IMG/VR virus record: IMGVR_UViG_3300032893_000248
Span: 1 to 26,472 of that record
Source: a virus
Reading direction: 5' to 3' (one strand)
DNA length: 26,472 nucleotides
In this document: piece after piece, positions 22,011 through 26,472 of the stretch
How the letters are laid out: every line of letters starts with the position of its first letter
Numbering within the stretch: position 1 is the first letter of the stretch
Translations under genes and position numbers: made by a program
Notes under the pieces: model-generated
What the model was told of the DNA's origin: nothing
The model's database searches: none
What the model saw: only the letters and a program-made list of their open reading frames with translations

Positions 22011-22451
22011 TCAGACGTCCAGCCGCCAGGCGGGGTCGAAGCCCGGGTGGCCCGCGTACGGCTGGGCCATCCTCGCCAGCACCATCCGCAGCGACTTCAC
22101 GATCAGGTCCCGCATCGCGATCCGCAGCTCATCCTGATCGGTCGCCTGCTCGATCAGGTTGTTGGCGAGCACGAGCTGGTAGTCGTCCAGGATGACCCGC
22201 TTGGCCGCGACGTCGGCGAGCACCCGCGCCGGATCCCAGCGGGCGATGTGCGCGGTGACCACCTGGCCCTGCTCGCCGTCGTCGAACGTCTCCAGGATCG
22301 GGTGCCCATCATCGTCGCTGACGAAGTTCCGGCCTTGCGTCTGGCTGGCTTCCCAGTCGCGGTCAAACCATCGTCGAGCCGCCCGCGCCGCCGCCTCGTC
22401 CTCGTCGAGGCGCGCCCGCAGGAACGCCACCAGGTCGCTCACGGCCGCCAC
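22011..22451 (-). CDS. DUF6221-like protein
   Basis: A 146-residue protein recognised from its layout as a DUF6221-type protein of actinobacteria: an N-terminal DLVAFLRARLDEDEAAARAA helix, a central TAHIARWDPARVLADVAAKRVILDDY helix, and a C-terminal RMAQPYAGHPGFDPAWRLDV. No enzymatic motif is visible; function of the family is unknown to me. It overlaps the upstream minus-strand gene by 13 nt and is the last gene of the unit, ending about 10 nt before the convergent terminator. Confidence 0.75.
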   Translation of the reverse strand: MAAVSDLVAFLRARLDEDEAAARAARRWFDRDWEASQTQGRNFVSDDDGHPILETFDDGEQGQVVTAHIARWDPARVLADVAAKRVILDDYQLVLANNLIEQATDQDELRIAMRDLIVKSLRMVLARMAQPYAGHPGFDPAWRLDV

Positions 22452-23450: not shown

Positions 23451-23867
23451 TCAGCCCAGCTTGAGCCGGACCGGTCTGGTGATGTCGGCCTCCGCGTACC
23501 GGATGACCCCGCGGTGGGAGACCTCGATCCCGTAGAAGCCCTTCCCGGCCGGGACACCCGGCACGGTGAACGCGAACATACAGTCGGTCCGCGACGGCAG
23601 GGATGACGCCGCCGGGGTACCGGCCTGGAGCTGGCCGAGGGCCACAGTCACACCGTTCGCGTCGGAGATCGTGACCTGCGCCCCGATCTCGATGTCTGCA
23701 TATCCGCCGCTGGGGAAGCAGCTGCTGTCCATGGCCGGGACGTCGGCCACGGTCAGGTCACCCGACACGGTGAAGGTGGCCGGCATCGGCGGTGTGCTCG
23801 CCGCGGCCGACGCTCCTCCACATCCGGCCAGGAGCAGGCAGGCGGCGATGAGCGACGGCGTACGCAT
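23451..23867 (-). CDS. Internal-start product: secreted lipoprotein (alternative)
   Basis: This is the same frame as the HTH fusion, started at ATG 23867, giving 138 residues. GGGAGGAC lies about 5 nt upstream of the ATG. It has a short basic start (MRTPS), a hydrophobic core (LIAACLLLAG), and a lipobox Cys at residue 16, a complete lipoprotein signal. The remaining part has two cysteines (SSCFPSGGY and TDCMFAF) that may form a disulfide, and ends with VSHRGVIRYAEADITRPVRLKLG. It may be surface-exposed in a lysogen. It is listed separately because the strong internal start makes it at least as likely as the fusion. Confidence 0.65.
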   Translation of the reverse strand: MRTPSLIAACLLLAGCGGASAAASTPPMPATFTVSGDLTVADVPAMDSSCFPSGGYADIEIGAQVTISDANGVTVALGQLQAGTPAASSLPSRTDCMFAFTVPGVPAGKGFYGIEVSHRGVIRYAEADITRPVRLKLG

Positions 23868-24116
23868 GGCGTCCTCCCGTGACGGCGTGACCTGCCGATC
23901 ACGGTACGCCGTCATGGCGGCCAGCCGCTCGGTCTCGTCGAGGCTGATGGGCTGGAGTCCGCGCAGCTTGGCCGACATCTGCGGCTGGGACAGGCCGAGA
24001 GCCCGACCGAGCTGGGCCTGTGTCATCTGCCGCCGCGCGCGCCAGGCGCGCACCTCTGCGGCCACTCGGAACCGTAGGGGGTTCGCGGTGCCCCCTGACA
24101 CCTCGGGTGTCGCCAT
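23451..24116 (-). CDS. XRE-type HTH fused in frame to a lipoprotein domain
   Basis: A 221-residue frame. ATG at 24116 is preferred to the TTG at 24152, because a good promoter places the RNA start at 24116-24117. Residues 18-70 form an XRE HTH (VRAWRARRQMTQAQLGRALG, then LSQPQMSAKLRG). Without any stop, it runs into MRTPSLIAACLLLAGC (84-99), a lipobox with Cys99, and then a secreted domain of about 115 residues (FTVSGDLTVAD... FYGIEVSHRGVIRYAEADITRP), a type common in actinobacterial lipoproteins. Met84 (23867) has a strong ribosome site GGGAGG. Either a membrane-tethered regulator is made, or the locus yields two proteins. The usual last HTH helix looks shortened. Confidence 0.7.
   Translation of the reverse strand: MATPEVSGGTANPLRFRVAAEVRAWRARRQMTQAQLGRALGLSQPQMSAKLRGLQPISLDETERLAAMTAYRDRQVTPSREDAMRTPSLIAACLLLAGCGGASAAASTPPMPATFTVSGDLTVADVPAMDSSCFPSGGYADIEIGAQVTISDANGVTVALGQLQAGTPAASSLPSRTDCMFAFTVPGVPAGKGFYGIEVSHRGVIRYAEADITRPVRLKLG
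23880..23914 (-). repeat. Hairpin inside the HTH-lipoprotein junction
   Basis: TGACGGCGT (23880-23888) and ACGCCGTCA (23906-23914) form a perfect 9-bp inverted repeat with a 17-nt loop. It sits immediately upstream of the lipoprotein ribosome site. It looks like a former intergenic element now read as coding, or a control hairpin for the internal start. Confidence 0.5.
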
Positions 24117-24123
24117 GCCGATG

Positions 24124-24152
24124 ACAGTACCGAGAAAACCGATACCTGACAA
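24124..24152 (-). promoter_or_regulatory. Leftward promoter of the switch, leaderless
   Basis: On the minus strand: -35 TTGTCA (24152-24147) and -10 TACTGT (24129-24124), separated by 17 nt. RNA would start near 24117-24116, at the ATG itself. There is no ribosome site before that ATG, which agrees with a leaderless message. One CGATA repeat lies in the spacer. Confidence 0.7.
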
Positions 24153-24222
24153 GGGTGGACCGATAGCCAGGCGACACGCCCGGGAATTTTCAAAGCTTGA
24201 CGGGGCGTCGATAATCTCGATA
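24140..24222. promoter_or_regulatory. CGATA operator-like repeats in the divergent switch
   Basis: CGATA occurs at 24140-24144, 24161-24165, 24209-24213 and 24218-24222, the first pair 21 nt apart (two helical turns) and the last pair 9 nt apart. Two copies lie in or just behind the leftward promoter and two lie at the rightward promoter. They are candidates for binding by the HTH proteins encoded on each side. Confidence 0.5.
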
Positions 24223-24233: not shown

Positions 24234-24506
24234 ATGACCACTACCCCATCCACCGAGGTCACTACCAACGACCTCATCCGTGGGGCGATGGCGCTGCGCG
24301 GCTACGTCCAGCGTGACCTGGCCAAGGTTCTCGGCGTCACCCAGCCGCAGGCATCGGCCCGGCTCACGGGCCGCCAGGACTGGGCGCTCGGCGAGATCCG
24401 CAAGGTCGCCGCGTGGCTCCGCATCGACGTCGCCGCCCTCGTCTCCGCTCAGCCGGACTTCGCCGCCCTCGTCGCCACCGACACCGCCCCGGCCGGTGCC
24501 GCGTGA
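24234..24506 (+). CDS. Small XRE/Cro-like HTH regulator
   Basis: A 90-residue protein with an HTH domain over residues 12-66 (NDLIRGAMALRGYVQRDLAKVLGVTQPQASARLTGRQDWALGEIRKVAAWLRIDVAAL). The QRDLAKVLGVTQPQASARL block is the helix-turn-helix. It is transcribed divergently from the other HTH gene and begins the rightward gene series, as Cro does. It overlaps the next gene by GTGA. It resembles the partner HTH in the DNA-recognition helix (VTQPQASARL versus LSQPQMSAKL), so both may read the same operators. Confidence 0.85.
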   Translation: MTTTPSTEVTTNDLIRGAMALRGYVQRDLAKVLGVTQPQASARLTGRQDWALGEIRKVAAWLRIDVAALVSAQPDFAALVATDTAPAGAA

Positions 24507-25301: not shown

Positions 25302-25570
25302 GATCCCCACTCGCCGCCGTCGCCCCCGTCACCAGCCTGCCCACACCTCGCGGCCGCTGCCTGCACTGCGACCGCCGCATCCTGACCCGCCACTACCGCA
25401 TCCTCATCGACCGCCACGAGGGCCCACTGATCCTCCACGAACGGTGCGTCCACCCCATCCGGATCACCCGCCGCGGACGCCTCATCGCCGACCTCGCCGG
25501 CGCAGCCTTCCTCACACCCGTCGTGATCGCCGCGATCTGGCTGGCGTGGGCCGCATGGGGCAACCAGTGA
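25298..25570 (+). CDS. Membrane-anchored zinc-finger protein
   Basis: A 90-residue protein with ATGA overlap. Residues 21-24 (CLHC) and 47-50 (HERC) make a likely C2HC zinc site around ILTRHYRILIDRHEGPLIL, and residues 63-87 (IADLAGAAFLTPVVIAAIWLAWAAW) form one membrane helix. The zinc part precedes the helix; positive residues (RITRRGR) just before the helix place the zinc domain in the cytoplasm. No family is recognised. Confidence 0.65.
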   Translation: MRSPLAAVAPVTSLPTPRGRCLHCDRRILTRHYRILIDRHEGPLILHERCVHPIRITRRGRLIADLAGAAFLTPVVIAAIWLAWAAWGNQ

Positions 25571-25725
25571 GGAGGACCCGCACCGTCACCTCGGTGCTCC
25601 TGCTCGCCGCGATCGGCGCCTTCATCGTGCTCGCGCTCGCCGGGTGCGGCCCCGACGGCGGAGCCAGCAAGAGCGACTGGTGCCAGATCCCCAACGCCCA
25701 CGGCTGCCCCACCACCAGCCCCTAG
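25567..25725 (+). CDS. Small lipoprotein, early cluster
   Basis: A 52-residue protein starting at GTG in a 4-nt overlap. A basic start (MRRTRT), hydrophobic core (VLLLAAIGAFIVLALAG) and lipobox LAGC with Cys27 are complete, leaving a mature peptide of 26 residues with C39 and C47 that may pair. Such small lipoproteins made by prophages can block new infections at the cell surface; here this is inference from the signal only. Confidence 0.65.
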   Translation: MRRTRTVTSVLLLAAIGAFIVLALAGCGPDGGASKSDWCQIPNAHGCPTTSP

Positions 25726-25769: not shown

Positions 25770-25812
25770 CACCACCACCCGACTACCCGCAGCACAGAAA
25801 GGACCAACCCCC

Positions 25813-26472
25813 ATGCCACGCATCACCAGCCTCACCCCCGAACAGGAAGCCCTCCTGCCCGTCATCCGCGACAAGTGGCTCACCATCGGCCTATCCACCG
25901 GCACACCCGACAAGGCCGCCGCCGAGGCAGCCCTCGCCGACGTCTACCGGACCGGCGGCCTCCAGCCACCCCGGTTCGTCATCTGGCTCGACTCGCCCTG
26001 GGCCGGCGTCCTCGGCAGGTGCTACGCACCCGAGATCGTCGGCCAGGTGGGCGGCCAGGTGGACGGCCAGGTGCGCGGCCAGGTGGGCGGCCAGGTGGAC
26101 GGCCAGGTGTACGACCAGGTGGACGGCCAGGTGTACGACCAGGTGCGCGGCCAGGTGCGCGGCCAGGTGCGCGGCCAGGTGGACGGCCAGGTGCGCGGCC
26201 AGGTGGACGGCCAGGTGCGCGACCAGGTGTACGACCAGGTGGACGGCCAGGTGTACGACCAGGTGGACGGCCAGGTGGGCGGCCAGGTGCGCGGCCAGGT
26301 GGACGACCAGGTGGGCGACCAGGTGGACGGCCAGGTGGACGGCCAGGTGGACGGCCAGGTGTACGGCCAGGTGGACGGCCAGGTGGACGGCCAGGTGTAC
26401 GGCCAGGTGGACGGCCAGGTGCGCGGCCAGGTGGGCTCGAGCGAGATCGGGAACGACTCACCCAATGGTGGC
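25813..26472 (+). CDS. Tetrapeptide-repeat protein, DUF6745-like, partial
   Basis: The gene is open from ATG 25813 (AGAAAGGA 10 nt upstream) to the end of the window, so at least 220 residues are visible. Residues 1-76 form a compact domain: LTPEQEALLPVIRDKWLTIG, then STGTPDKAAAEAALADVYRTGGLQPPRFVIWLDSPWAG. This start and a following run of Q-V repeats resemble DUF6745-like proteins of actinobacteria. Residues 77-208 are 33 copies of [G/D]-Q-V-[D/R/Y/G]. Then SSEIGNDSPNGG leads out of the window, where a C-terminal domain is expected. Function is unknown; the repeat may form an elongated or solenoid structure. Confidence 0.75.
   Translation, partial: MPRITSLTPEQEALLPVIRDKWLTIGLSTGTPDKAAAEAALADVYRTGGLQPPRFVIWLDSPWAGVLGRCYAPEIVGQVGGQVDGQVRGQVGGQVDGQVYDQVDGQVYDQVRGQVRGQVRGQVDGQVRGQVDGQVRDQVYDQVDGQVYDQVDGQVGGQVRGQVDDQVGDQVDGQVDGQVDGQVYGQVDGQVDGQVYGQVDGQVRGQVGSSEIGNDSPNGG
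26041..26436 (+). repeat. 33 tandem 12-bp coding repeats
   Basis: Thirty-three uninterrupted units of GRC-CAG-GTG-NRC (consensus GGCCAGGTGGAC). The CAG and GTG codons never vary, even at silent positions; only the first codon (GGC, 7 times GAC) and fourth codon (GAC 14, CGC 8, TAC 6, GGC 5) change. Units 6-9 and 16-19 share almost the same order, pointing to expansion of multi-unit blocks. Length changes by whole units keep the frame. Confidence 0.95.

Follow-up and report, generated by a model that had tools for sequence, protein, structure and literature searches.

A truncated DUF6745-family gene at the end of a phage contig carries a tetrapeptide array that may serve as an exchangeable binding arm

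The right-hand end of IMG/VR record IMGVR_UViG_3300032893_000248 holds an open reading frame in which a non-repetitive domain runs into a long array of four-residue repeats before the record stops, raising the question of which protein the array belongs to and what it might contribute to a phage. The window analyzed here is the whole record, 26,472 bases in length and classed as linear. Head, tail and lysin genes are present, with matches for the terminase and a GH25 lysin, and the nearest major capsid protein is that of Streptomyces phage Dagobah (44.7%); the source is a high-GC phage, probably with an actinobacterial host.

The ORF (25813-26472, + strand) begins with an ATG placed 9 nucleotides after an RBS-like AGAAAGGA (25796-25803, +) and contains no stop in the 220 codons present before the record ends. 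Residues 1-75 (25813-26037, +) form a non-repeat N-terminal domain (SLTPEQE..RDKWL..GLST..VIWLDSPWAGV), and residues 76-207 (26038-26433, +) form the array of 33 units of the form X-[G/D]-Q-V, followed by a final 13 residues (GSSEIGNDSPNGG; 26434-26472, +). The array remains in perfect register with a period of 12 bp and zero indels, and TRF places it at 26040-26434 with 32.9 copies and 87% matches. The initial annotation described 33 perfect 12-bp units; their number and register hold, but the units are not identical and fall into nine types. The variable residue X is Asp in 14 units, Arg in eight, Tyr in six and Gly in four, and the first unit has Val (GTC), so the earlier statement that X is limited to these four residues, all with NRC codons, applies to 32 of the units. 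The residue before Gln is Gly (26 units) or Asp (7 units), and the codons GGC/GAC, CAG and GTG show zero synonymous variation, with changes restricted to positions 1, 2 and 5 of the 12-bp unit. Under the codon usage of the window such synonymous choices have a chance of ~10^-27, a figure that ignores the origin of units by duplication.

The gene closes a rightward cluster that begins with an HTH regulator in a Cro-like position (24234-24506, +; PHROG 4583 transcriptional repressor, E 3e-8), near which a promoter-like site is located (24187-24215). A second HTH regulator in a repressor-like position (23451-24152, -; PHROG 4583, E 8e-6) diverges from the first, and this pair, 1.3 kb upstream of the array-bearing ORF, makes placement of the gene in an early cluster plausible; the further label of a prophage-expressed accessory protein is one suggested by position. 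The small lipoprotein previously noted upstream of the repeat gene is a lipoprotein-like ORF (LLAAIGAFIVLALAGCG; 25567-25725, +) a short distance ahead of it. The repressor-like ORF combines its HTH domain with a lipoprotein-like stretch (MRTPSLIAACLLLAGCGG) in one frame, perhaps reflecting an internal start or two functions sharing that frame, and the leftward cluster before the switch encodes a DUF6221 family protein (22011-22451, -; PF19730, E 4e-29).

No profile in Pfam, NCBIfam or PADLOC matched the window ORF above cut-off, and its PHROG matches (36210 and a tail-lysozyme PHROG) cover the repeat part only. Identification came from homologues of the N-terminal domain, which is 73% identical in the viral contig locus L003, 65% in L004 and 55% in the Nocardia farcinica locus L072, with a range of 55-73% across L003, L004, L072, L074 and L082. 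L003 and L004 also run from the N-terminal domain to a contig end inside a QV array. In L005, L006, N. farcinica L008, a Mycobacterium prophage (L011) and a spring phage (L010) the domain is followed by a spacer or array and then by a C-terminal core, which Pfam assigns to DUF6745 (PF20530) in L005 and L006. Searches with the core gave 58 genome loci and 49 viral loci, and the N-terminal domain accompanies the DUF6745 core in 103 of 116 core ORFs; a scan of genome contigs with the N-terminal domain alone gave no relative, and an alignment of seven core members proved too diverged for use as a search query. The segment between the domain and the core varies from 13 residues in some phages to over 300 in others at one site, which indicates that the array has been inserted into a common scaffold. 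By these comparisons the DUF6745 family consists of a scaffold, formed by the N-terminal domain and C-terminal core, with a single insertion site for a segment of four-residue period.

The array begins at residue 76 in the window ORF, as it does in L003, L072 and L073, and the gene is probably the front half of an array-bearing DUF6745-family protein. Its membership rests on the N-terminal domain and the array, because the core lies off the record: no DUF6745 core is present anywhere in the 26,472-base window, and the truncated ORF, which has no match among the Pfam profiles, stops before the point at which the core starts in homologues. The DUF6745 link made in the initial annotation is therefore borne out by full-length homologues with N-terminal domain, repeat and core, and domain and repeat are kept together in relatives, the absence of such relatives having been named as evidence against the annotation. 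That annotation had missed the position of the array inside a scaffold rather than as a C-terminal tail, together with the partner gene, the separate repeat proteins and the likely cause of the contig break described below. Among known proteins, DUF6745 of N. farcinica L008 and gp38 of Mycobacterium prophiGD102-1 carry the N-terminal domain and a four-residue array in the same place as the window gene, and gp174 of Microcystis phage Ma-LMM01, compared by sequence match and fold search only, also has the N-terminal domain. The window gene differs from the known DUF6745 proteins in ending before the core and in an array alphabet of D/R/Y/G instead of W/R/G. L008 and L009, located on plasmids 2 and 3 of N. 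farcinica NCTC11134, are 99.9% identical over 5.8 kb, which could reflect a duplication or an assembly error; the reading frame of L009 is interrupted across the array, and its DUF6745 annotation covers just the C-terminal part. Plasmid matches in Lactococcus, Hymenobacter and Burkholderia were weak, consisted of simple repeats and were judged unrelated.

A small protein of roughly 100-150 residues adjoins the core, on either side, in 102 of 116 loci. This DUF6745 partner has the motifs Q-G-D, G-[NH]-x-H, H-x-E-H and R-Q-R-E, with conserved His, and has no match in Pfam or NCBIfam, its sole profile match being PHROG 27831, which has no function assigned. The structure model of the partner is all-beta with a mean pLDDT of 91.5, and that of the L072 protein reaches a pLDDT of about 90 or higher across most of its two conserved parts. 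Neither core nor partner matched PDB sequences better than E 0.5, and comparison with PDB folds gave no convincing match for the core (best Z 4.4 over 58 residues, a WRKY domain) or the partner (best Z 2.7), a known fold still being possible for each. In the viral library the best match is DUF6745 of Ma-LMM01, and the hits at E < 0.001 are confined to DUF6745 proteins and to phage proteins or fragments that are uncharacterised. None of the window ORF, the core and the partner matched a PADLOC model of anti-phage defence. In one chromosomal clade of DUF6745 and its partner (L046-L068), which is without a perfect array, the genes adjoin members of the STM4013, STM4014 and STM4015 families; we know of no function for the STM4013-STM4015 cluster.

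The reading that we favor, at roughly even odds (a probability of about 0.5), is that a phage scaffold bears the array as a multivalent and exchangeable binding arm, shuffled by recombination and diversified by selection. In its favor are the location of nearly all arrays in DUF6745 genes, the partner next to most cores, the single insertion site, variation that is almost wholly non-synonymous and keeps to one alphabet, block indels between close relatives, the mutual exclusion of arrays in cis and separate repeat proteins, and the four-residue periodicity of array-free spacers. Recombination between near-identical 12-bp units would reshuffle the arm with the frame kept, and selection would keep the array heterogeneous if whatever the arm engages varies from one host or competing element to another. 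The biochemical step of the module would then fall to the scaffold and the His-rich partner, probably early in infection; the HTH pair upstream of the window gene and the location of some relatives near replication genes provide a context for early action. Counting against a binding arm are the low pLDDT of the modeled array (48-58), a residue alphabet that is narrow for a recognition code, the near-random order of units, and a window copy that ends before the core and has a 13-residue tail matching no relative. TAL-effector-like recognition likewise combines a constant repeat with variation at chosen codons and recombination between units; the resemblance is functional only, the TAL-effector-like unit being about 34 residues compared with four here, and no sequence relation is claimed. 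Pentapeptide-repeat and other solenoids also have a short repeat with one small or hydrophobic fixed residue and a variable one, but pentapeptide repeats have a period of five compared with four (12 bp) in the window array, and structure modeling predicted no solenoid.

The chief rivals to the binding arm are self-association of the array and a length spacer, with slippage, a DNA element and targeted mutagenesis judged less likely. In the first of these the array would be a disordered, low-complexity sequence whose aromatic and Arg residues cross-link copies of the protein, the number and mix of stickers tuning assembly without a specific target. Sticker-and-spacer sequences are typically rich in Tyr/Trp, Arg, Gly, Gln/Ser and Asp, and the residue mix of the arrays is similar. 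The L072 array is drawn as a helix at a pLDDT of about 48-63, and because the confidence is low a structured binding surface is unproven; low array values (48-58) and the near-random unit order fit self-association. Against it, arrays have an invariant hydrophobic residue once every four positions, a feature that array-free spacers retain in part and that suggests structure, with period-4 hydrophobicity in 24 of 60 such spacers at p<0.05 compared with 0-1 of 60 for periods 3, 5 and 7. Because array-free spacers often keep this periodicity, the four-residue-period segment is probably ancestral and the perfect arrays its expansion on mobile elements; viral, phage or plasmid records account for 22 of 24 array lineages.

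Self-association is further disfavored by the separate repeat proteins, which in some loci carry shared end caps. Cores with a short spacer have, within the fetched flanks, separate proteins of about 50-150 residues with a similar repeat (L005, L006, the L088 group, L097, L098, L107 and L109). Counted as lineages (70% clusters), such proteins accompany 7/9 compact cores, 0/24 with the array in cis and 0/40 with a long array-free spacer (Fisher 8e-6 against array in cis and 2e-8 against long spacer); in the per-locus counts some overlapping ORFs may be spurious, and L109 was added by manual inspection. The small repeat proteins form families of up to a dozen per phage (L088 3781-8147, L098 1578-9309, L107 4770-7735, L005 5851-7393 and L006 125-3180), and at some loci have conserved ends and variable middles, as in MKSVxKQI...VKHEI in L098 and VIPLGKPL...REDLTP in L107. 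Taken together, self-association is possible but rather unlikely.

A second rival holds that the array is a slippage-prone spacer or stalk between two domains, important for its length or flexibility alone or not at all. The intrinsic instability of tandem 12-bp repeats, the wide range of lengths and the existence of array-free homologues are consistent with such a spacer. The pattern of substitution is not, since neutral turnover would give synonymous and replacement variants equally. In 27 arrays, aligned in a phase that places the variable codons first and including the close relatives L077, L011, L078 and L076, the constant half depends on the lineage (Q-V, Q-L, S-L, S-V or A-T) and is fixed nearly to the codon within one array. 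Almost all deviations in 840 interior units affect the first or second base of codon 1 or codon 2; synonymous differences number 3 among 3,360 codons, and the pooled pN is 0.140 compared with a pS of 0.0026. Another 59 arrays, found with a pattern in which the variable bases were free and the other bases fixed, have Gly, Trp or Arg at X and mostly Asp or Gly next to it. Comparison of the arrays shows one recurring alphabet at the variable residues, composed of aromatic, Arg, Gly and acidic residues, in lineages with different constant codons, which again argues against length alone. Arg is written by a single codon (AGG or CGG) in 53 of the 57 Arg-containing arrays among the 59, so that unit types look clonal and shuffled rather than randomly written.

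The arrays also differ in unit number and order between close relatives. Prophages L077 and L011 have 19 and 46 units despite flanks that are 99.6% identical, and their arrays can be aligned through block indels and 1-2 changed units. In pairs with flanks roughly 94-97% identical, unit order agrees no better than in shuffled arrays. As judged by these comparisons, the segment in phages and plasmids, often a 12-bp array homogenized at the DNA level, changes by in-frame gains and losses of blocks. Two identical units stand side by side less often than in shuffled arrays (z -3.1), a further point against a spacer of free length, which we consider unlikely. The initial suggestion of an adjustable surface agrees with the behavior of the arrays, replacements within one alphabet accompanied by nearly zero synonymous change, and the accompanying suggestion of a nucleic-acid mimic is not supported, because the arrays combine acidic, Arg, Gly and aromatic residues in proportions that change from one array to another.

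It is highly improbable that the 12-bp units act as DNA, for example as replication iterons or as recombination or packaging sites, with translation incidental. The near-perfect DNA units and the replication genes close to some relatives would suit this role, but the constant codons vary by lineage as the protein pattern stays, and the repeat also occurs as diverged separate proteins. In addition, a scan of 2.9 million viral contigs with DNA patterns of the array alone, variable bases left free, gave 82 stretches, of which 79 lie in frame within DUF6745 ORFs recognized by N-terminal domain and/or core.

In about half of the array stretches found, as in the window, a contig end falls within the array or next to it, and the array is likely the cause of the break at its right end. 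This frequency, and a 30-base tail after the window array that occurs in no other viral contig, could be taken to mean that a wrong join affects the array or the final 39 bases. Such a mis-assembly is scarcely probable given that finished plasmid and prophage records hold complete genes with arrays of similar length; the window array is therefore ordinary for the family, and doubt is limited to the tail. In several contigs the array is found at both ends (L126/L127, L140/L170, L144/L151, L147/L188, L149/L180, L150/L173 and L178/L179), and these contigs probably represent circular genomes that the assembler linearized within the array; they may be near-complete though classed as linear. The contig of L004 (G002) starts inside the array and continues with the core (341-961) and the partner gene (1099-1419), suggesting a circular genome opened in the array. 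The window has no partner gene upstream of the truncated gene or anywhere else, the partner in G002 being downstream of the core, and the missing core and partner are predicted to lie just past the right end.

Least probable is targeted mutagenesis of the variable bases, as in diversity-generating retroelements, whose targets in phage proteins resemble the array in replacement variation at fixed sites (here two or three nucleotides per unit), since random writing would give both Arg codons in one array, the adenine-directed pattern is missing (the A of CAG is unvaried in the window array and in nearly all others) and close pairs differ instead by block indels with 1-2 changed units.

A literature search on DUF6745, PF20530 and phage tetrapeptide arrays, with few subscription journals covered, gave nothing relevant, and the passages searched in a paper on M. 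abscessus prophages (PMC8092301) are silent on such a repeat. The family is known as DUF6745 only, and we found no paper describing the array system. Tentatively, the module may be a new three-part phage system composed of the DUF6745 scaffold, the His-rich beta partner and tetrapeptide arms, either carried in cis or split off into as many as a dozen proteins, which would keep a fixed alphabet and be reshuffled by recombination to follow a changing target in the host or a competitor. Repeats that are diversified at chosen residues and otherwise identical usually mark a recognition front. Here the same alphabet recurs in dozens of phage arrays beside a conserved partner, and the split-gene version suggests that the arm is separable. 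As phage contigs often break in or beside the DUF6745 gene, the module is probably under-annotated.
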